Origin: an uncultured Acinetobacter sp.
Lineage (GTDB): Bacteria > Pseudomonadota > Gammaproteobacteria > Pseudomonadales > Moraxellaceae
Reading direction: 5' to 3'
DNA: 64,000 bases
NCBI RefSeq assembly: GCF_947493735.1
Contig: NZ_CANLSL010000008.1
Coordinates: 1-64,000 of the forward strand
Positions within the stretch are counted from its first letter, which is position 1. Each line of letters starts with the position of its first letter. Below are positions 571 to 55,484 of the stretch, piece by piece. A program made the translations under genes and the position numbers. The notes under the pieces are model-generated. The model saw nothing but the letters and a program-made list of their open reading frames with translations. It had not been told where the DNA came from and did no database searches.

Positions 571-2775
571 TTAACCTGCGATCACGCCACCATCATCACG
601 AGTGATCACGACGGTAGCTGAACGTGGACGTGCGGTTGAGTTCGTACGATCTGTCTGAGATGCAGGCCAGTGGCTGGTTGGTGCGTCAAAGCTTGCCGAG
701 TCTTCACCCGGATGTTGCACATTGATAAAGATCGCTTTGTGATCAGGTGTAGTCGTCACACCAGTGATCTCACATTCTTTAGGGCCTGTCAGGAAGCGAC
801 GTAGATTGTCATCAGTGACTTGTGCGCCAACGATGGTGGTTTGACCATTTGAAGTGGTTGCTGTTGTGCCATCACCAACTTCACCCGGCAGCGCCGCTAG
901 CATCATACAGTTAGTGGTGTCGGTATATGCACCGTCATCTGTTTGAAGCCATAATACACCACGTGTATCGAACCACATGCCATCTGGGCTAGAGAGGTCG
1001 TTGGCATCAGTAAGTTTAGATAGATTGATTGTTGGATCCATTGCCGCTTCTGCACCGAATAGATAAATATCCCAAGCAAATGAAGTCGCTGTGGTCATAT
1101 CGTCTGCTTCACGGAAGCGAATCACGTGACCATTAATATTGCCTTTATTGGTTTTTTCATCACCGTCGATTGCAGGGTTGTCATAGGTGTCTTGATAGTT
1201 TCGTGGATTCGCTGCATCGGTTGAATAGCTTGTACCACGGTTAGAGTTGTTGGTAAGGGTGACGTAGACTTCACCATTCATTGGGTTGACTGCACACCAT
1301 TCTGGACGATCCATCTTGGTTGCGCCAACTGCATCCGCAGCGAGGCGTGCAAATGTCACCACATCTGCCTGCGAGCCAAAAGGGTAGACTGCGTTGCTTT
1401 CATCTAAGCCATTTTTACCATAAGTCAATGCAATCCATTCACCTGTACCATCATCATTGAACTTGGCAACATACAAAGTGCCATTGTTCATGTATTTGTC
1501 ACCTGCGCTATAGCCACCGTTGATGTCGCTATTGCTCCACGTTGCATCAGATACAAACTTGTAGATGTACTCGCCACGTGAGTCATCGCCCATGTAAAAA
1601 GCAAGCGGTTGCCCTTCAATGGCACGGCTAGAACGACAGTCTTCATGCGCAAAACGACCGAGAGCAGTACGTTTTACAGGATTTACAGAGCGGTCGAATG
1701 GGTCGATTTCAACAATCCAACCAAAGGTATTTGCGCTATTACGGTAATCTTGAGTTGCATCACCTGCGATCACAGATGAATTCCAACGGTCGAAAAGATC
1801 TTGCTCATTGGTGCTCGAAATCGCTGATTCCCAACCATAGCGAGAAGATGCTTTTTGTTTTAAGCCATAACGATTCAGTGCAACGACTTCTTTGGCACTG
1901 CGTAGCGCATCATCGCCATCGTTACGAACGAAGTAGCCAATAAAGTTTTCTTCTGTTGTGAGGTAAGTCCCCCAAGGTGTATAACCATTACCACAGTTGT
2001 TATGTGTACCACGTGTCTTGGTACCATTCGCAGAGTATGCTGTGCGTACAAGATCAGAATTTTTTACAGGACCTGCAAAATCCATCTCTGTTGATGCAGT
2101 GATACGACGGTTAAAGTCAGAATCTTTTTTGATGGTAACAACTTGGGTTGTTTCATCTTTTTCAAGGTGAATCACAGATACACCGTGCGAATTCATTTCA
2201 CGAAGCACTTCATCTTCTGGACGACGACCTTCGGCATCAACCTGTGGTCCTGCATTGTGCAAAAAAGTTTGATTGATGTATTCATGATTCATCACCAATA
2301 AGCCTTGCTCAGAAACATTGGCATCGTATTTGCCACTTGCCAAACCAAAGAAAGTCATACCATCGTGGCAGTCACCTGAACGAAGCTCAAAGCTTGCACC
2401 TGACGGCACGTTATTATCATTCCAAGCAGATTCAGTTGCGTTCAATGGATCACCCAAAGCATACAGCACAGTTGCAGTATAGCCTTCTGGGACAGTCACC
2501 CAATCATTCAAATTCTTATCAACTGCTTTAAAAGTGAGGCTTTCAGGGCGTTGGTTGGTTGGTTCTTCTGGTATTGGTTCTTCAGATGAATTGTTATCGT
2601 CATCGCTACAAGCGACAAGGCTTGATGCAAGTGTCAAAGCCACCGTTGCCGATGCTGTTTTTTTAATTAAACTACGACGTGAAATATGATGTTCTAAAAT
2701 GTCACGAAAATGTGGATTGTCTGAGTTGTTGTTATCTAACTCTTGGTCTTCAAAGTATGGTGTACGCTCGGTCAT
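571..2775 (-). CDS. phoX: PhoX-family (DUF839) alkaline phosphatase, Tat-exported
   Basis: A 734-residue PhoX/DUF839 protein, a Ca/Fe-dependent phosphomonoesterase that releases phosphate outside the cytoplasm. A twin-arginine motif (SRRSLIKK, residues 32-39) precedes a hydrophobic stretch ending in a lipobox-like SLVAC (Cys56), so it may be a Tat-exported lipoprotein. Family landmarks are visible: NHEY, NNCGNGYTPWGTYLTTEE, the MDRPEW segment and SSPDGMWFDTRG. It lies 206 bp downstream of tatC on the same strand with no clear terminator between, which places a Tat substrate directly behind its translocase. The ATG is preceded by cagggaat as a plausible ribosome binding site. Identification is firm; the exact substrate and the lipidation are inferred. 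Confidence 0.93.
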   Translation of the reverse strand: MTERTPYFEDQELDNNNSDNPHFRDILEHHISRRSLIKKTASATVALTLASSLVACSDDDNNSSEEPIPEEPTNQRPESLTFKAVDKNLNDWVTVPEGYTATVLYALGDPLNATESAWNDNNVPSGASFELRSGDCHDGMTFFGLASGKYDANVSEQGLLVMNHEYINQTFLHNAGPQVDAEGRRPEDEVLREMNSHGVSVIHLEKDETTQVVTIKKDSDFNRRITASTEMDFAGPVKNSDLVRTAYSANGTKTRGTHNNCGNGYTPWGTYLTTEENFIGYFVRNDGDDALRSAKEVVALNRYGLKQKASSRYGWESAISSTNEQDLFDRWNSSVIAGDATQDYRNSANTFGWIVEIDPFDRSVNPVKRTALGRFAHEDCRSSRAIEGQPLAFYMGDDSRGEYIYKFVSDATWSNSDINGGYSAGDKYMNNGTLYVAKFNDDGTGEWIALTYGKNGLDESNAVYPFGSQADVVTFARLAADAVGATKMDRPEWCAVNPMNGEVYVTLTNNSNRGTSYSTDAANPRNYQDTYDNPAIDGDEKTNKGNINGHVIRFREADDMTTATSFAWDIYLFGAEAAMDPTINLSKLTDANDLSSPDGMWFDTRGVLWLQTDDGAYTDTTNCMMLAALPGEVGDGTTATTSNGQTTIVGAQVTDDNLRRFLTGPKECEITGVTTTPDHKAIFINVQHPGEDSASFDAPTSHWPASQTDRTNSTARPRSATVVITRDDGGVIAG

Positions 2776-2981
2776 GATGATTCCCTGGCAAGTGCGTGTT
2801 AAGGTAAAAATGTTTTAGCTTAGGCTAAGCAGGGAATATGTCAGTGCGGTGAAGTTTTCTTTACAAAGTGATGAATTGGGAAAAATATTCAAAAAATCAA
2901 ATTGTTGTAAATTAAAAGTAATATATTTTTAGGGCGTTTAAGCCGAATTTATATAATCCAACAGTCATCCATGTTGTTAAA

Positions 2982-3761
2982 TTATTCTACCTCTTTACGC
3001 TTTTCAATCAATTTACCAAACAACAATCCCAATTCAAAAAGCATCCACATCGGAATCGCCAACATCAACATAGAAATGGCATCAGGCGGCGTAGCAAACA
3101 TTGCCACAAAGAAACAACCGACAATGATAAAACGACGTTTTTCAATCAAATCTTGCGTGCTCACCACACCAATCATGATTAACAACAAGGTCGCGACAGG
3201 TATCTCAAAAGTCAGCCCAAACACCACAAATAGTTTTAAACAAAAACTGAGATAGCTATTGATATCGGTCATCGGTGCGACGGTTTCAGGGGATACGTGG
3301 ATAAAAAAACCTAAAATCGCAGGCAAAGTAATAAAATAGGCAAAAGCAATCCCAATATAAAACAAGCTGATACTGGCGATGAGTAATGGCAGGGCAAGTT
3401 TCTTTTCACGTTGATACAGCGCAGGTTTGAAAAATGCCCAAATTTGATACAACACATACGGCATCGCAATCATAAATGCCAAAAAGAAATTCAGCTTAAA
3501 CGGTGCCATGAATGTCGCTGTCACATCAGTGGCAATCATGGATGAGGTCGAAGGAAGCTGTGCTCGCAAAGGCTCAGACAGCAGTTGATACGTATCATTG
3601 GCAAACGGCAATAATGCAAAAAACAGTACCAAAAGCGCAATGACCACCTTGATCAAATGCCCACGCAAGATCATCAGGTGCTTGGTGATCGGCATACTGT
3701 CTAATGCTTCTGATGTGTTATCTAAATCGATTTGTGAAGTGTTGGCATTGGACTGTGTCAT
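2982..3761 (-). CDS. tatC: Sec-independent protein translocase TatC
   Basis: A 259-residue polytopic inner-membrane protein and the core receptor of the twin-arginine translocase, which exports folded proteins. Six hydrophobic segments and the family landmarks are present (SMIATDVTATFMAPFKLNFF, FFKPALYQREKK, YLSFCLKLFVVFGLTFEIPVA, FATPPDAISMLMLAIPMW). Glu119 in QREKK corresponds to the signal-peptide-binding glutamate of E. coli TatC (Glu103), but the N-terminal HLIELR motif reads HLMILR, so the residue equivalent to Glu15 is Ile31. It is the third gene of tatABC, 52 bp after tatB. Confidence 0.97.
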   Translation of the reverse strand: MTQSNANTSQIDLDNTSEALDSMPITKHLMILRGHLIKVVIALLVLFFALLPFANDTYQLLSEPLRAQLPSTSSMIATDVTATFMAPFKLNFFLAFMIAMPYVLYQIWAFFKPALYQREKKLALPLLIASISLFYIGIAFAYFITLPAILGFFIHVSPETVAPMTDINSYLSFCLKLFVVFGLTFEIPVATLLLIMIGVVSTQDLIEKRRFIIVGCFFVAMFATPPDAISMLMLAIPMWMLFELGLLFGKLIEKRKEVE

Positions 3762-3813
3762 ATCGAATACTACATTTTGATGATGATTGGTGTGGTATGG
3801 CTAGGTTGAATGG

Positions 3814-4293
3814 TTAGACAGCATCTTGATATTCAAAGGTGACGCATTTTGCACGCTGTAGAAACTGCGTTTGAAATGGAATATTTAAGCTGTATTCAGT
3901 GCAATATTGATATGAACGATTCACAATTTTATTTGTGCTAATTGGTGCATTGACCGTTTGTTTAAGCTCAACAATATCATCACTCACCAGTTCGCCATTA
4001 CCCACAACAGGCGATTTAAATGGCATCAATTTTTGATGTTTGGCTTGCTCATATTGCGCTTGCATTTTGGCTTCTAAGTCTTTGATGCGTTGTAGCTCTT
4101 GTTGCATCTGTGCTTTGAGTTCGGACATGCGTAGTTCACGATCAATGTCGTTTTGTACGCTATTGACCATGCGTTTCAGCTTGCCATACCAACGCCCTGC
4201 AAAGCGTGCAGCCTCAGGCAGTTTGTCAGGGCCCAGCACAATCAATGCGACCACAGCAAATAAGAAAAGCTCGGAAATTCCCAAATTAAACAT
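3814..4293 (-). CDS. tatB: Sec-independent protein translocase TatB
   Basis: A 159-residue single-span membrane protein. Its N-terminal helix (FNLGISELFLFAVVALIVLG), the hinge motif GPDKLPEAAR and a long charged amphipathic helix are standard for TatB, which pairs with TatC to bind Tat signal peptides. The C-terminal third is poorly conserved and ends in an unrecognised segment with a cysteine. It lies between tatA and tatC with gaps of about 50 bp, consistent with one operon. Confidence 0.95.
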   Translation of the reverse strand: MFNLGISELFLFAVVALIVLGPDKLPEAARFAGRWYGKLKRMVNSVQNDIDRELRMSELKAQMQQELQRIKDLEAKMQAQYEQAKHQKLMPFKSPVVGNGELVSDDIVELKQTVNAPISTNKIVNRSYQYCTEYSLNIPFQTQFLQRAKCVTFEYQDAV

Positions 4294-4340: not shown

Positions 4341-5683
<1,343 letters not shown>

Positions 5684-22210: not shown

Positions 22211-23380
22211 TTATGAATCTTTACTAAATAAATCACGAGTATAGATCTTTTCTAAGCAGTCTGATAGTTCTGGAGCAAGTCGATTGGCAACAATCACATC
22301 GGATTGTAGTTTAAATTGCTCGATATCTTGAATGACTGGAAGTTTGTTAAAATATGCTTCATTTAATGATGGTTCATAGATGATGAGTTCTATGCCTTCA
22401 CTTTGCAGTCTTTTCATCACTGCTTGTATAGAAGAAGCTCTGAAATTATCAGAACCTTGTTTCATGATTAAGCGGTAGATACCGACGACTTGAGGTTTTT
22501 TCTCGATGATTGAGTCTGCAATAAACTCAATGCGTGTAGTATTCGAGTGAACAATCGCCTGAATTAAGTTTTGCGGGACGTCTTTGTAATTTGCGAGCAA
22601 TTGCTTGGTATCTTTCGGTAAGCAATATCCACCATAACCAAATGACGGGTTATTGTAATGATTTCCAATTCGAGGGTCTAAGCTCACACCTTGAATAATT
22701 TCAGCGGTGTTTAAGTTGTGAATTGAAGCATAGGTATCTAGTTCGTTAAAATATGCGACACGCATTGCTAAATAAGTATTGGCAAAGAGCTTTATTGCTT
22801 CTGCTTCAGTACTTTGTGTAAACAGGATGGGGATATCTTTTTTAATTGCACCATTTACCAAAAGGTGAGCAAAATTTTGTGCACGCTCAGATTGTTCACC
22901 TACAATGATACGTGATGGATACAAATTATCATATAGCGCAAATCCTTCTCGTAAAAATTCTGGTGAAAATATAATATTGTCGGTGTTAAATTTTTCTCTA
23001 ACTTGTTTTGTGTAGCCTACAGGAATGGTTGATTTAATGACGATCAATGCTTTTTGATTGCATTCTAGTATCTTCTCAATGACACTTTCCACACTTGATG
23101 TGTCAAAATGATGCGTGATTTCATCATAATTTGTTGGTGTAGCAATGATGACAATATCTGCGGTTTGATAGTGTATTGTATCTGTACTGGCTTGAAGGTT
23201 CAACGCGTTATTTGATAAATAGTATTGAATTTCTTTATCTTCAATGGGAGATTGCTTATTATTGATTTGCTTAACTTTGTTTGGGTCAAGATCAATTGCA
23301 ATCACATTATTATGCTGAGCTAAAAGTACGGCATTAGATAACCCAACATAACCTGTGCCTGCAACAACTATGTTTTTCAT
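22211..23380 (-). CDS. ugd: UDP-glucose 6-dehydrogenase (catalytic cysteine present)
   Basis: A 389-residue nucleotide-sugar dehydrogenase of the short type. It has an intact NAD-binding motif ([16 protein letters not shown]), the conserved KSTIPVGYT segment, the substrate-site lysine in [16 protein letters not shown] and the catalytic cysteine in [10 protein letters not shown] (Cys253). It converts UDP-glucose to UDP-glucuronate, a common capsule precursor. It is first in the minus-strand ugd-GT-manB operon. A second, degenerate dehydrogenase lies beside galU in the same locus, so this is probably the working copy. Confidence 0.88.
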
Positions 23381-28769: not shown

Positions 28770-29951
28770 ATGAAAATTCTAGGAACAATTCGCCAATCTG
28801 TAGCCCATGGTTCGCTTGGCGGAATGGAGTTGGTAACTCATGATCTCTACCGAGGATTGGTCGAAAAAGGATTTGAAGTTTTGGTTCTTACCACTGCCTT
28901 GAAAGATTCTGATGAGCAAGAAAAAATAGTGGATGGGGTGAAATATATTTTTATTCAAGAATCTATTTCTGGAATGTACAGTAATGAATATCATCGAGGG
29001 GTGAAGGTTTTTTTTGATAAAATGGCAATAGAAGCTAACTTGCCTGATATTATTCATTCTGCATCTGGGGCTGCTGCATCTTTATTACAAAATAAAGAGG
29101 GCGTTCCAGTGGTGGCGACTTGGCATGGGACACGCTTAGAAGAGGAGTTGGATAAGTTATCTGATTATGCATATATTAAAAAAGGTAAACTTTTACCATT
29201 TCATTTTGAGCGCCTGTATTTAAATGGAATTACTAAACTCGTTCAACAAAATGAATTTGGTAAGTTCGATGCTCATGTGGCTATTTCTCCATTTATGAAG
29301 CAATGCATTACTTCTTATGGTGTGCATGAAGCACAGACTCATGTCATACGAAATTCATTACCAAAATATTTCTCTCGGCAAATTAGCAAAAAAAATGTAG
29401 TTGGTAATCGTATTGTACTAGGGCTTGTTGGACGTTTGATTCCGATGAAGGGACATATGTTTTTTGCCGAGGTGGCAAAACAGTTGGACCCTAATAAATA
29501 TCAATTATTATTGATTGGTGCAGGTGAGTCGCAGGATGTTTATCAGAATTGTGGCTTGGAAGTATCTTCGGTGCGTGTTGATCGTGACAAAATACCAGAC
29601 ATGTATCGGATGATGGATATTTTTGTTAATCCAACATTTCGCTATTCAGGTTTTGATTTGACTGTACAAGAAGCGCTAGCGAGTGGCGTGGTAACGTTAG
29701 TATCGGATGTTACGCCATACCATGAGTATTTCATTGAATTAAACGAGCGCTATGGAAATCAAAGTCCGTATTATGAATTCAAAGTCGCTGATATTGAAAG
29801 CTGTTTAAATGCAATCAACCGAATAGTCGTAAATAAGGCGACTAACGAACATAGTGATGACTTTCAAAAAGAATTTAGTTTTGAATTAATGATTGATAAA
29901 TATATCGCAGTTTTTCAAAAACTAAAAAAAGAGCGCCAAGCAGATGGCTGA
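28770..29951 (+). CDS. GT4-family glycosyltransferase
   Basis: A 393-residue GT-B protein. The N-terminal region (LGTIRQSVAHGSLGGMELVTHDLYRGL) is the acceptor-side start of GT4 enzymes. The C-terminal nucleotide-sugar domain has LGLVGRLIPMKGHMFFAEVA, the MYRMMDIFVNPTF segment and the EALASGVVTLVSDV EX7E-type region. Donor and linkage are unknown. Its end overlaps the next, broken gene by 8 bases. Confidence 0.82.
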   Translation: MKILGTIRQSVAHGSLGGMELVTHDLYRGLVEKGFEVLVLTTALKDSDEQEKIVDGVKYIFIQESISGMYSNEYHRGVKVFFDKMAIEANLPDIIHSASGAAASLLQNKEGVPVVATWHGTRLEEELDKLSDYAYIKKGKLLPFHFERLYLNGITKLVQQNEFGKFDAHVAISPFMKQCITSYGVHEAQTHVIRNSLPKYFSRQISKKNVVGNRIVLGLVGRLIPMKGHMFFAEVAKQLDPNKYQLLLIGAGESQDVYQNCGLEVSSVRVDRDKIPDMYRMMDIFVNPTFRYSGFDLTVQEALASGVVTLVSDVTPYHEYFIELNERYGNQSPYYEFKVADIESCLNAINRIVVNKATNEHSDDFQKEFSFELMIDKYIAVFQKLKKERQADG

Positions 29952-50327: not shown

Positions 50328-53138
50328 TTACGCATTTTTACTGGCAAGTTGTCGTAACACATAATGCAAGACACCACCATGACGAACATATTCACGTTCT
50401 TTCGGTGTTTGCAACATGACATTGACTTCGAAGCTCTCCGTTGAGCCGTCGGCTCGGGTTGCAGTTACTGTAGCGACATCACTTTCGCCATTGTCTAGTC
50501 CAGTGATGGAAAGCACTTCTGAACCGTCCAAATTGTGGCTTTGAATCGATTCGCCGTCTTTGAAAGTCAATGGTAATACGCCCATGCCGACCAAGTTTGA
50601 GCGATGAATCCGCTCAAAAGATTGTGCGAGGACAGCTTTGACACCGAGTAGAATCGTGCCTTTTGCCGCCCAGTCACGACTTGAACCTGTACCGTATTGC
50701 TCGCCACCAAGTACGACCAATGTGCGATTTTGCTCTTTATATTTCATCGCTGCATCGTAGATTGGCATTTTTTCGCCGTCAGCTAAACTGGCTTGATCTG
50801 CTTGGAAATAGAGGGTGTTACCACCTTCTTCACCATTCATCATCAAGTTTTTGATGCGAATATTAGCGAATGTGCCTCGTGTCATCACTGCATCATTACC
50901 ACGACGTGAGCCGTAACTATTAAAGTCTTGCTCCATCACACCACGACTTTGCAGATATTGACCTGCAGGAGAGTCAGGCTCGATGCTACCTGCAGGTGAA
51001 ATGTGATCTGTAGTAATCGAATCGCCAAACAGGCCTAAAATACGTGCATTTTCAATATCGGGAACGCCCTCAGCCTCCATGTTCATACCATCGAAAAACG
51101 GCGGATTTTTGATATAGGTCGATTCATCATTCCATTGATACAGCTCAGAGTCAGGCGAGCTAATCGCATTCCACTCTTCACTGCCTTCGAAGACTTCGCC
51201 ATAATTTTTATGGAACATTTCCGCATCGATATTGTTGGCAATCAATTCGTCGATCTGCGCACTGCTAGGCCAAATGTCTTTTAAGAAGATATCTTTACCG
51301 TCTTGATCTTGTCCGATTGAGTCATTGGTCAGGTCAATATCCACTGTACCTGCCAAGGCATACGCCACGACTAATGGGGGTGACGCAAGATAGTTGGTTT
51401 TGACATGTGAGTGAATACGCCCTTCGAAGTTACGGTTACCTGACAAGACAGATGCAACCACGAGATCATTTTCCTCAATGCCTTTTTCAATGGCATCAGG
51501 CAGTGGCCCCGAGTTACCAATACAGGTGGTGCAACCATAACCCACCAAATAGAAACCTACCGCTTCCAGCGCATCCATCAAATCGGTTTTTTCTAAATAA
51601 TCAGTGACCACTTTAGAGCCTGGTGCGAGGGAAGTTTTCACCCAAGGCTTGGCTTTTAAGCCGAGTTTTGCAGCATTCTTCGCCACCAAGCCTGCACCAA
51701 TCATCACCGCAGGATTGGACGTGTTGGTACATGAGGTAATCGCTGCAATCACCACCGAACCATCACGCAGTTCAATGTCATTTTTATCTAAAGTGATTTT
51801 CGAGATAAGGCGTTGCAGTGCATTTTTATCTTGGCTTTTAGCTGAATTAGGCGAAGCTGCAAGGTCGTCTGCTTGCGATTGTTCACCACCTTCGTTGGCA
51901 AAACGAGATTCATCGTCTCTAGTTTGACGAGATTTGCTCATTTCGCCCAAGGTTTCCACAAATCGGCTGTGCATATCAGAGAGTGCAATACGGTGATGCG
52001 GTAGTTTTGGTCCAGCAAGTGATGGTACGACTGTGCTTAAATCCAACTCAAGATTGCTTGAGTACTTTGCAGTTGGAGAGCTTTCGTCATGCCATAATCC
52101 TTGTGCTTTGGCATATTGTTCGACCAAGGCAATTTGCGCTTCATCACGACCAGATAGGCGTAAATAATCTAATGCAACTTGGTCAATCGGGAAAATACCA
52201 CATGTTGCGCCATACTCTGGCGCCATGTTGGCAATGGTTGCACGATCGGCAAGTGGCATGTTGTGCAAGCCGTCGCCATGAAACTCGACAAACTTCCCAA
52301 CCACGCCATGCTCACGCAACATTTCAGTGACTCTAAGCACTAAATCCGTTGCCGTGACACCTTCTTTGAGTTTACCTTTGATCTTAAAACCGACCACTTG
52401 AGGAATCAACATTGACGCAGGTTGACCGAGCATTGCCGCTTCCGCTTCAATCCCGCCAACGCCCCAACCCAGCACACCAATACCATTGATCATGGTGGTG
52501 TGGCTGTCTGTACCAAATACCGTGTCAGGATAGGCGTACAGCTCACCATCTTGCTCAGATGCCATCACCACACGGGCGAGGTATTCTAAGTTGACCTGAT
52601 GCACAATCCCTGTAGCAGGTGGCACGACTTGGAAGTTTTGAAAAGCCTGACGACCCCAATGCAAAAATTCATAACGCTCTCGGTTGCGTTTAAATTCAAT
52701 TTGTTTATTTAAATCTAGTGCATCCTCACGCCCGTAAACATCGACTTGCACCGAGTGATCAACCACCAACTCACTTGGAATAAAGGGATTAATTTGTTCG
52801 GCTTTACCACCGAGCTTGACCACGGCATCACGCATCGCTGCCAAATCGACGACCGACGGTACACCGGTAAAATCCTGCAACACCACACGAGCAGGCATGA
52901 AGGCGATTTCTTGACTTGGTTTGGCGTTGGCATCCCAGTTTGCCACAGCTTCGATGTGACTTTTGCCGACACTTTGCCCGCCATCTTCATTGCGAAGTAG
53001 ATTTTCCAACACGATTTTCATGCAAAAAGGGAGCGTTTCAATGTTTGAAAAACGTTCTGACAACTTTGCTAAACTATAATAATTGTGGTTTTTTCCATCA
53101 ACATCCAGTGCACTTTTGACTTCAAATATATCTGACAT
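50328..53138 (-). CDS. acnA: Aconitate hydratase A
   Basis: A 936-residue aconitase of the AcnA/IRP1 type, isomerising citrate and isocitrate in the TCA cycle. It has the Fe-S cysteines (SCTNTSNP and GCTTCIGNSGPL), DSHTTMINGIGVLGWGVGGIEAE, and the C-terminal swivel domain with SRDWAAKGT and SFERIHRSNLVGMGVLPL. A hydrophilic, low-complexity insert (about 395-440, RQTRDDESRFANEGGEQSQA) makes it longer than E. coli AcnA (891). It is monocistronic and divergent from the glycosyltransferase gene. Confidence 0.97.
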   Translation of the reverse strand: MSDIFEVKSALDVDGKNHNYYSLAKLSERFSNIETLPFCMKIVLENLLRNEDGGQSVGKSHIEAVANWDANAKPSQEIAFMPARVVLQDFTGVPSVVDLAAMRDAVVKLGGKAEQINPFIPSELVVDHSVQVDVYGREDALDLNKQIEFKRNRERYEFLHWGRQAFQNFQVVPPATGIVHQVNLEYLARVVMASEQDGELYAYPDTVFGTDSHTTMINGIGVLGWGVGGIEAEAAMLGQPASMLIPQVVGFKIKGKLKEGVTATDLVLRVTEMLREHGVVGKFVEFHGDGLHNMPLADRATIANMAPEYGATCGIFPIDQVALDYLRLSGRDEAQIALVEQYAKAQGLWHDESSPTAKYSSNLELDLSTVVPSLAGPKLPHHRIALSDMHSRFVETLGEMSKSRQTRDDESRFANEGGEQSQADDLAASPNSAKSQDKNALQRLISKITLDKNDIELRDGSVVIAAITSCTNTSNPAVMIGAGLVAKNAAKLGLKAKPWVKTSLAPGSKVVTDYLEKTDLMDALEAVGFYLVGYGCTTCIGNSGPLPDAIEKGIEENDLVVASVLSGNRNFEGRIHSHVKTNYLASPPLVVAYALAGTVDIDLTNDSIGQDQDGKDIFLKDIWPSSAQIDELIANNIDAEMFHKNYGEVFEGSEEWNAISSPDSELYQWNDESTYIKNPPFFDGMNMEAEGVPDIENARILGLFGDSITTDHISPAGSIEPDSPAGQYLQSRGVMEQDFNSYGSRRGNDAVMTRGTFANIRIKNLMMNGEEGGNTLYFQADQASLADGEKMPIYDAAMKYKEQNRTLVVLGGEQYGTGSSRDWAAKGTILLGVKAVLAQSFERIHRSNLVGMGVLPLTFKDGESIQSHNLDGSEVLSITGLDNGESDVATVTATRADGSTESFEVNVMLQTPKEREYVRHGGVLHYVLRQLASKNA

Positions 53139-53473
53139 TTTGGCTTCCTTTATCTTTTATACAATGAAAAAATCGAGCGATTCAGTTTTTGATAAAATGT
53201 TCGGTGGCTACAAGATTCAGCTTAACAAATGGATGCTAATTTTAAGTTTTTAAAAATGTATAACTTGGTGGGAAAAATGTAATGGATATAATCTGTTACA
53301 GAATAAGTATTTGAAAATGAATTACGAAATCAACGTGCAAAATGAATGCACATAACTGTTATTTTGGAATGACTAAAATCAAAGATTGTCAAAAAACTGT
53401 CATCAATTGATCATGAAATGGTCAAATACCAAGTTTAATATCGCAGAATAAGAAAACCAACTTGGAAAGATGC
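53139..53473. other. Divergent promoter region, acnA / GT4-PAP2
   Basis: These 335 AT-rich bases should drive acnA leftward and the glycosyltransferase gene rightward. A good PhoB box lies at 53386-53403 facing right. A tataat-like word (ggatataatctg near 53290) is present but has no clear -35 partner. No ORF or RNA structure stands out. Confidence 0.5.
53386..53403 (+). promoter_or_regulatory. Putative PhoB box upstream of GT4-PAP2 genes
   Basis: TTGTCAA-aaaa-CTGTCAT gives two direct half-sites with the correct 4-base, all-A spacer. Half-sites match the Pho box at 12 of 14 positions, the second perfectly. It faces the glycosyltransferase gene and ends about 70 bases before its ATG. No strong -10 is seen at the ideal distance. 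Regulation by PhoB is inferred. Confidence 0.55.
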
Positions 53474-54730
53474 ATGATCAACTCATCAGCAAAAGTGCTG
53501 GATTGTACGCAAGCAAAGCATAACCTTGAAAATAAAAAGCAACAAGAAAATCAACCACAACGCCCTGCACGAAAATTAAGAATTGCCATCGTCACTGAAA
53601 CTTGGCCACCTGAGATCAACGGTGTGTCTCTTTCTGTGATGCAACTGACCAAAGGCTTACAACGTCGTGGTCATAAAATTTTATTGGTTCGTCCACAGCA
53701 AAGTGAAAAAAATCACAGCTTTTACCCAGATCAAGAATGCGTGGTGCGTTCGCAGTCGATTCCAAAATATCCGCAGATGCAATTTGGCTGGCCACAGATT
53801 TTTAAAATTGGTCAGGCATTGGATCAATTTAAAGCAGACATTGTGCATATTGTGACTGAAGGGCCGCTTGGATTGGCAGCACTCAATCAAGCCAAACTGC
53901 GCAATATTCCGATTTCGAGTGGATTTCACTCGTCATTTCATGATTTTAGTCGTTATTTTGACATGGCATTCTTAGTGAGACCTGTACGCCAATATCTAAA
54001 ATGGTTTCACAATCAAACGGATCTGACCCTTGTGCCTAGTGCAGATACACGTCAAGTGTTAAAAGATGAGTTTGGTCTGCGTTGCCCGATGCGAATCATT
54101 AGTCGTGGTGTGGATAGCCAACGCTTTAATCGCAACTTGCGGAGTTCTGGGCTACGTCGTCAGTGGCAAGTGGATGACAATACTACGGTATTGTTGTCTG
54201 TAGGACGAGTTTCCCCTGAAAAAGAAGTGCCATTTATCATCAAGAGTTTCTATGCGCTGAAAAAACATCAACCTCAACGCAAACTAAAAATGGTTGTGGT
54301 CGGTGATGGCCCAATTCGTGAGGATTTGGAAAAACAATATCCTGATGTGATTTTCATGGGTGCGCAAATGGGGGAGGCGTTGGCAATGTGTTATGCCAGT
54401 GCAGATGCCTTCTTATTCGCCAGTGAAGTTGATACTTTTGGTAATGTTGTATTAGAGGCGGTATCTAGTGGTTTGCCTGTTTTGGCATATAACTATGCAG
54501 CACCTGCGCTGATGGTCGAGAATGAGCGCACAGGTTGGTTGCTACCATTTGGTGATAAAGAAGTGTGGCAAAAAACCTTACTCAACTTGCCGTCGTTAAA
54601 AGACTTGGCACATATGGGACAAATTGCCAGTCAAAAAGTGGGTGATTGTGGTTGGGATCGTCCTGTGGCGGATTTTGAAAGTGCCTTATTGCATTATGCA
54701 AAAAAGCCAACCATGTACTTGCTGTTTTAA
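53474..54730 (+). CDS. GT4 glycosyltransferase, probable glycolipid synthase
   Basis: A 418-residue GT-B enzyme. After a polar N-terminal extension, the GT4 start is IAIVTETWPPEINGVSLSVMQL, followed by the GFHSSFHDFSRYF acceptor region, the donor-domain start LLSVGRVSPEKEVPFIIKSF, VVGDGPIREDLE and the EVDTFGNVVLEAVSSGLPVLAY EX7E motif. This arrangement is typical of enzymes glycosylating diacylglycerol (SqdX/MgtA/Agt-like). The track starts at TTG 53462; ATG 53474 with ggaaag upstream is better. The PAP2 neighbour and the PhoB box suggest membrane-lipid remodelling under phosphate limitation. Confidence 0.8.
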   Translation: MINSSAKVLDCTQAKHNLENKKQQENQPQRPARKLRIAIVTETWPPEINGVSLSVMQLTKGLQRRGHKILLVRPQQSEKNHSFYPDQECVVRSQSIPKYPQMQFGWPQIFKIGQALDQFKADIVHIVTEGPLGLAALNQAKLRNIPISSGFHSSFHDFSRYFDMAFLVRPVRQYLKWFHNQTDLTLVPSADTRQVLKDEFGLRCPMRIISRGVDSQRFNRNLRSSGLRRQWQVDDNTTVLLSVGRVSPEKEVPFIIKSFYALKKHQPQRKLKMVVVGDGPIREDLEKQYPDVIFMGAQMGEALAMCYASADAFLFASEVDTFGNVVLEAVSSGLPVLAYNYAAPALMVENERTGWLLPFGDKEVWQKTLLNLPSLKDLAHMGQIASQKVGDCGWDRPVADFESALLHYAKKPTMYLLF

Positions 54731-54929
54731 TGTGCTTTGCAGGTGAATGCTTTTGAAGTAGCTTTTTTGAAATCAGTGTTTTAAAATCAGTGTTTTGAAA
54801 TTTAGTTCGCTTGATTTTGAAAATTGGAAGAGAAGTTGGAATTAAACCACGGTACGATAAAAGCGTGATCGCACCATCAATATGAAAAAACAGTCAATAT
54901 TTATTGACATCAATACTAGGAGTAGTCGC

Positions 54930-55484
54930 ATGAATAAGATGAAAATTGCGCAAAAAGCGATACTAGATTGGGATTTACGAGGTTGTGTTTACCTGAATCA
55001 TTGGTCATCACACCCTTATGTGGCAAAGTTTTTTAAAGCGGTAAGTCGTCTTGGTGACGGTGCATTTTGGTACATCATGCTTGCCATCGTATGGGGCATG
55101 AAGGGCTTGGCGTACTTTAGCCAAGTGATCTATATCATCCTTGCAGGCAGTGTCGGTACGTTAATTTATAAACTCTTAAAACGTCATACAGTTCGTCCGC
55201 GTCCTTATCAGGTACATCAAGTGATTAGTTTGGGTGAGCGACCACTGGATCATTTTAGCTTTCCGTCAGGGCATACTTTACACGCAGTTTTAGCATGTAC
55301 AGTCTTGGGTAGTATTGAATCCGTGTTACTTGCAATCATGTTGCCATTTACCATTTTGGTGGGCTTGTCACGTATGATCTTGGGTTTGCATTATCCGACG
55401 GATGTGATCGTTGGGGCGAGTATTGGTTTTATGGTGGCGATGTTGACGTTGTGGTGTGCGCCATTCTTAGGTATCGTGCTTTAA
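54930..55484 (+). CDS. PAP2-family membrane phosphatase
   Basis: A membrane phosphatase of about 184 residues with the three PAP2 motifs: KRHTVRPRP, PSGH (in FSFPSGHTLHAV) and SRMILGLHYPTDV. Several hydrophobic helices surround them. Such enzymes dephosphorylate phosphatidate, undecaprenyl diphosphate or similar lipids. The track starts at 54882, but ATG 54930 has a good ribosome binding site (taggag). It follows the GT4 gene by about 200 bp in the same direction. Phosphatidate as substrate would supply diacylglycerol to the GT4 enzyme, which is inference. Confidence 0.85.
   Translation: MNKMKIAQKAILDWDLRGCVYLNHWSSHPYVAKFFKAVSRLGDGAFWYIMLAIVWGMKGLAYFSQVIYIILAGSVGTLIYKLLKRHTVRPRPYQVHQVISLGERPLDHFSFPSGHTLHAVLACTVLGSIESVLLAIMLPFTILVGLSRMILGLHYPTDVIVGASIGFMVAMLTLWCAPFLGIVL

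Follow-up and report, generated by a model that had tools for sequence, protein, structure and literature searches.

The window, by which we mean the whole stretch of 64,000 nucleotides analysed, carries a gene for a GT4 glycosyltransferase followed by a gene for a PAP2 lipid phosphatase. A tandem array of PhoB half-sites lies in front of the pair, and acnA diverges from it; a second tandem pho box region is found elsewhere in the window. The features are as follows.

53386..53425, forward strand: four in-phase PhoB half-sites at 11-bp spacing, TTGTCAA (starting at 53386), CTGTCAT (53397), TGATCAT (53408) and TGGTCAA (53419), recognised from the sequence and from a footprint conserved in 110 loci
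53436..53441, forward strand: TAATAT, probable -10 element, 10 nt past the last half-site
53474..54730, forward strand: GT4 glycosyltransferase, Agt2-type (Pfam Glyco_transf_4, 3e-31; identity and trees)
54930..55484, forward strand: PAP2 lipid phosphatase (Pfam PAP2, 1.6e-22; motifs KxxxxxxRP, PSGH and SRxxxxxHxxxD)
50328-53138, reverse strand: acnA, divergent from and adjoining the GT4 gene
571..4293, reverse strand: tatA, tatC and the alkaline phosphatase gene phoX (Pfam PhoX, 7.8e-132, and TatA)
4612..4651, reverse strand: second tandem pho box region, in front of tatA-tatC-phoX

Both genes named in the preliminary description correspond to real open reading frames with the Pfam matches listed above. 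The GT4 gene more likely starts with ATG 53474 than with TTG 53462; for the PAP2 gene we favour ATG 54930, which stands behind AGGAG, an upstream ATG at 54882 being less likely.

The PhoB box originally noticed upstream of the GT4 gene, TTGTCAA-aaaa-CTGTCAT with agreement at 12 of 14 half-site positions, was found at 53386-53403 of the forward strand, where it has two mismatches to the CTGTCATNNNNCTGTCAT consensus, and it proved to be the first two of four half-sites. PhoB-regulon promoters are characterised by at least two CTGTCAT-like half-sites at 11-bp spacing with a -10 element about 10 nt downstream, and all of this is present in the window. The four half-sites and the TAATAT sequence have the layout of a PhoB-activated promoter, to which PhoB is predicted to bind.

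The genome from which the window was taken (G000, 2.6 Mb) contains 33 pho-box sites with two mismatches, compared with 9 for the reversed pattern. Since the box upstream of the GT4 gene is one of these 33, several of which are intragenic, the single site is by itself weak evidence, and it could be a chance match or belong to divergent acnA, with GT4 and PAP2 serving constitutive lipid or cell-wall metabolism. We therefore relied on conservation. Among 110 Acinetobacter loci with this GT4, most of them 52-57% identical in protein, which come from related genomes and so are not independent counts, yet have diverged in flanking sequence, the best box upstream of the GT4 gene had at most three mismatches in 73. 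Dinucleotide shuffles of the same upstream regions gave an expectation of 1.15 boxes per 110, and regions upstream of the neighbouring genes iscX (0 of 110) and ndk (0 of 109) contained no box at this threshold (0 of 219 in total, same loci). A box upstream of PAP2 was present in 5 of the 110 loci. Reversed upstream regions gave 36 of 110 at three mismatches or fewer; this control was set aside in favour of the shuffles and the neighbouring upstream regions, since reversing a tandem repeat leaves partial matches.

Alignment of the 110 upstream regions revealed four repeats and, at the place corresponding to the -10 element, a TAa.CT consensus at a fixed distance. Of the 110 Acinetobacter loci, acnA was detected beside the GT4 gene in that of the window alone; the footprint nevertheless holds its place and phase across loci where acnA is not the neighbour. 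Because the box stays with the GT4 gene where acnA does not adjoin, we reject both a chance match and ownership by acnA; we give this explanation very little probability. The phosphate regulation of GT4-PAP2 that had been proposed is thus strongly supported by footprint and promoter layout, and the operon appears to be under a genus-wide phosphate-starvation switch. In 37 of the 110 loci no box within three mismatches was found, and many carry degenerate boxes, so control may vary by species.

A second PhoB box next to a phosphate-related function had also been reported for the window, and it was recovered at 4612-4651 of the reverse strand, preceding tatA, tatC and phoX, which are presumably phosphate-regulated. 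Two-mismatch sites in the same genome also precede a PstS-type binding protein and a weak PHO4-like permease match, which, together with tat-phoX, indicates that the motif is used in this genome. With these two included, six other pho-box-like sites were located near the starts of genes for a GGDEF protein (C6:102241, L031; one mismatch), the PstS-type binding protein (C12:46957, L049), a DUF2057 protein (C18:22403, L053), a choice-of-anchor-I lipoprotein (C25:6237, L059), the PHO4-like match (C25:8236, L060) and a PF10118 hydrolase (C5:40250, L042). These are candidate members of the PhoB regulon.

The gene order GT4-PAP2-iscX-ndk is kept in all 110 Acinetobacter loci. The gap between GT4 and PAP2 measures 12-46 bp in 104 of them and 199 bp in the window, which makes co-transcription less certain here. 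A strong GT4 orthologue is present in about 127 of 149 Acinetobacter genomes. Among three relatives found in a single-sequence scan of genome contigs, the nearest named species was Acinetobacter sedimenti (91% in GT4). Of 29 Pseudomonadales loci that are more distant, 19 have PAP2 near the GT4 gene. Two tandem GT4 copies precede PAP2 in two Acinetobacter loci, L112 (genome G070) and L122 (G069). Three Acinetobacter genomes have a broken or split GT4 gene (G033:C6:24357-25478, G100:C5:164009-166528 and G138:C1:2640151-2641343), which could mean that the trait has been lost here and there. A Verrucomicrobia MAG (L143) also has a GT4, with 37% identity to that of the window.

Pseudomonas has two GT4s related to the enzyme of the window. 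The first, 32-33% identical to it, lies directly behind a PlcP-like metallophosphoesterase, as expected for Agt1; the second, about 40% identical, has no linked PAP2. In genome G499 a GT4 of the second type, 38% identical to that of the window, adjoins plcH and a plcR-like gene. PA0842 (Agt2) presumably adjoins plcHR in P. aeruginosa, and from this we infer that the G499 gene is Agt2/PA0842 and that G499 belongs to the P. aeruginosa group. By identity the GT4 of the window is thus closer to Agt2 than to Agt1 (38% vs 32-33%), and in the tree it groups with Agt2 against PlcP-linked Agt1 with support of 100/100. All PAP2-linked GT4s fall on the Agt2 side with the exception of that of L196, which is on the Agt1 side. 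Expressed in E. coli, Agt2 (PA0842), which is induced by low phosphate, gives glucuronosyl-diacylglycerol, and Agt1 gives monoglucosyl-diacylglycerol (PMC8528852). The glycolipid synthesis suggested for the GT4 in the preliminary description is accordingly supported by tree and synteny, which link it to an enzyme of published activity, and the sugar added would most likely be glucuronic acid or glucose, taken from the UDP form.

Two genes of UDP-sugar dehydrogenase type are present in the genome of the window. The window itself has a gene of this type at 22874-23374 (reverse strand) and a further GT4 at 28818-29354 (forward strand); they may belong to a locus for surface polysaccharide and are a possible source of UDP-glucuronate.

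The GT4 scored far below the cut-off of every curated model, the best being those for GlcNAc-phosphatidylglycerol synthase and monoglucosyl-diacylglycerol synthase, so that sequence alone does not define the acceptor. One could imagine that the pair makes another surface glycoconjugate under phosphate control instead of a bulk diacylglycerol glycolipid, with the sugar placed, for example, on lipooligosaccharide, phosphatidylglycerol or a polyprenol lipid. The top curated model, N-acetylglucosaminyl-phosphatidylglycerol synthase, points in this direction, albeit with 105 bits where the cut-off is 480, and GT4 and PAP2 enzymes occur in polysaccharide pathways too. We consider such a product improbable, given that the GT4 groups with Agt2, a demonstrated diacylglycerol glucuronosyltransferase, and that neither of its conserved neighbours, iscX and ndk, is a polysaccharide gene.

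The PAP2 protein matches its Pfam family with all three motifs intact. Its further matches are mixed (SepP, PgpB and LpxE): the nearest solved relative is LpxE, PgpB being another, the best NCBIfam match is undecaprenyl-diphosphatase, and the NCBIfam PgpB model gave 39.8 bits where the curated cut-off is 261, which does not place it among the PgpB-type phosphatidic acid phosphatases. The same genome has one other PAP2 protein, a paralogue with 35% identity over 103 aa. Known substrates of the PAP2 family also include phosphatidylglycerophosphate (PGP), undecaprenyl-PP and lipid A, and the substrate of this one is not readable from its sequence.

What argues for PAP2 as the supplier of diacylglycerol is the make-up of the genomes. 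PlcP was found in none of 148 Acinetobacter genomes, the positive control being found in 9 of 12 genomes, and a search for PC-type phospholipase C yielded none in the genome of the window and matches in 63 of the 148. With neither enzyme detected there, PAP2 is the best candidate for the diacylglycerol source, a role that its conserved adjacency to the GT4 and its intact motifs make plausible. PlcP and a PAP2-linked GT4 occur together in some other families, so that PAP2 cannot be regarded as a mere substitute for PlcP. It could also be that only the glycosyltransferase serves PhoB-regulated glycolipid synthesis. PAP2 would then dephosphorylate PGP or undecaprenyl-PP, or serve to scavenge phosphate, with phospholipase C or normal turnover supplying the diacylglycerol. 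The mixed PAP2 matches, the PC-type phospholipase C genes of the 63 genomes and the Agt2-type GT4s of Pseudomonas that manage without a linked PAP2 fit this division, as does the annotation of A. baumannii A1S_0496, probably the same PAP2, as phosphatidylglycerophosphatase B (PMC3758355). We nevertheless think it rather unlikely, since PAP2 adjoins this GT4 clade in several families, including all 110 Acinetobacter loci, and since the genome of the window has neither of the two phospholipases.

Taken as a whole, the lipid-remodelling cassette of the preliminary description is upheld, its regulation well, its glycolipid product with good support and the role of PAP2 with moderate support. We regard it as probable that GT4-PAP2 is a PhoB-activated two-gene operon for a phosphate-free membrane glycolipid, the sugar, acceptor, PAP2 substrate and physiological effect being those we infer. 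When phosphate is scarce, phosphorylated PhoB would bind the four half-sites and recruit RNA polymerase to the -10 element at 53436. PAP2 would dephosphorylate phosphatidic acid, or a lipid phosphate like it, and so release diacylglycerol along with free phosphate. The diacylglycerol would receive a sugar from the Agt2-type GT4, and the resulting glycolipid would replace phospholipid.

The operon is most likely a variant of PlcP-Agt lipid remodelling in which the glycosyltransferase has another partner enzyme. In the PlcP-Agt1/Agt2 lipid renovation pathway of P. aeruginosa (PA3219, PA3218 and PA0842; PMC8528852), Pho boxes likewise stand ahead of GT4 diacylglycerol glycosyltransferases, on whose Agt2 side our GT4 lies; in Acinetobacter, however, no PlcP was detected and PAP2 directly follows the GT4. 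The PlcP-Agt pathway of marine heterotrophic bacteria (PMC4796936) also relies, when phosphate is limiting, on a glycosyltransferase that turns diacylglycerol into glycolipid, but there PlcP is the diacylglycerol source. A. baumannii has OlsB-dependent ornithine and lysine lipids (PMC11828411), which are likewise free of phosphate, controlled by PhoB/PhoR and formed when phosphate is limiting; they are aminolipids produced by acyltransferases, and their genes and chemistry differ from those of GT4-PAP2.

According to the same study, A. baumannii in low phosphate forms ornithine lipid, lysine lipid and a third lipid, U3, left unidentified, and a phoR mutant lacks all three; free amines are reported there for U1 and U2 only, U3 not being among the ninhydrin-positive lipids. 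A glycolipid would fit U3, and we hypothesize that GT4-PAP2 is the gene candidate for it. We matched the genes of the operon to A1S numbers from gene order: A1S_0493 is ctp (PMC7281292), and an expression table lists A1S_0494 as "putative glycosyl transferase" (PMC4567131). L090 is the one locus besides that of the window in which the gene upstream of the GT4 was read through; there it encodes a Ctp-type S41 peptidase, which fits this order. The A1S_0494 table entry and the A1S_0496 annotation mentioned above were all that we found in the literature on the operon itself.

Somewhat short of an even chance, in our estimate, is a wider scenario in which the PAP2-Agt2 operon is the original glycolipid system of the Pseudomonadales, with a phosphatidic acid phosphatase rather than PlcP turnover of phospholipids feeding Agt2. 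Pseudomonas would later have lost the PAP2 linkage, and U3 would be the product of the Acinetobacter operon (A1S_0494 and its neighbour in A. baumannii). If our reading of the operon is true, Acinetobacter, including A. baumannii, would have, next to the ornithine and lysine lipids, another phosphate-controlled route of lipid replacement, and a gene would be named for the U3 lipid of the 2025 study. Since the matching P. aeruginosa glycolipids change antibiotic sensitivity, the operon would then bear on the antibiotic response of phosphate-starved cells. It would also show that glycolipid remodelling can draw its diacylglycerol from a phospholipase-free source, one that several families have conserved.
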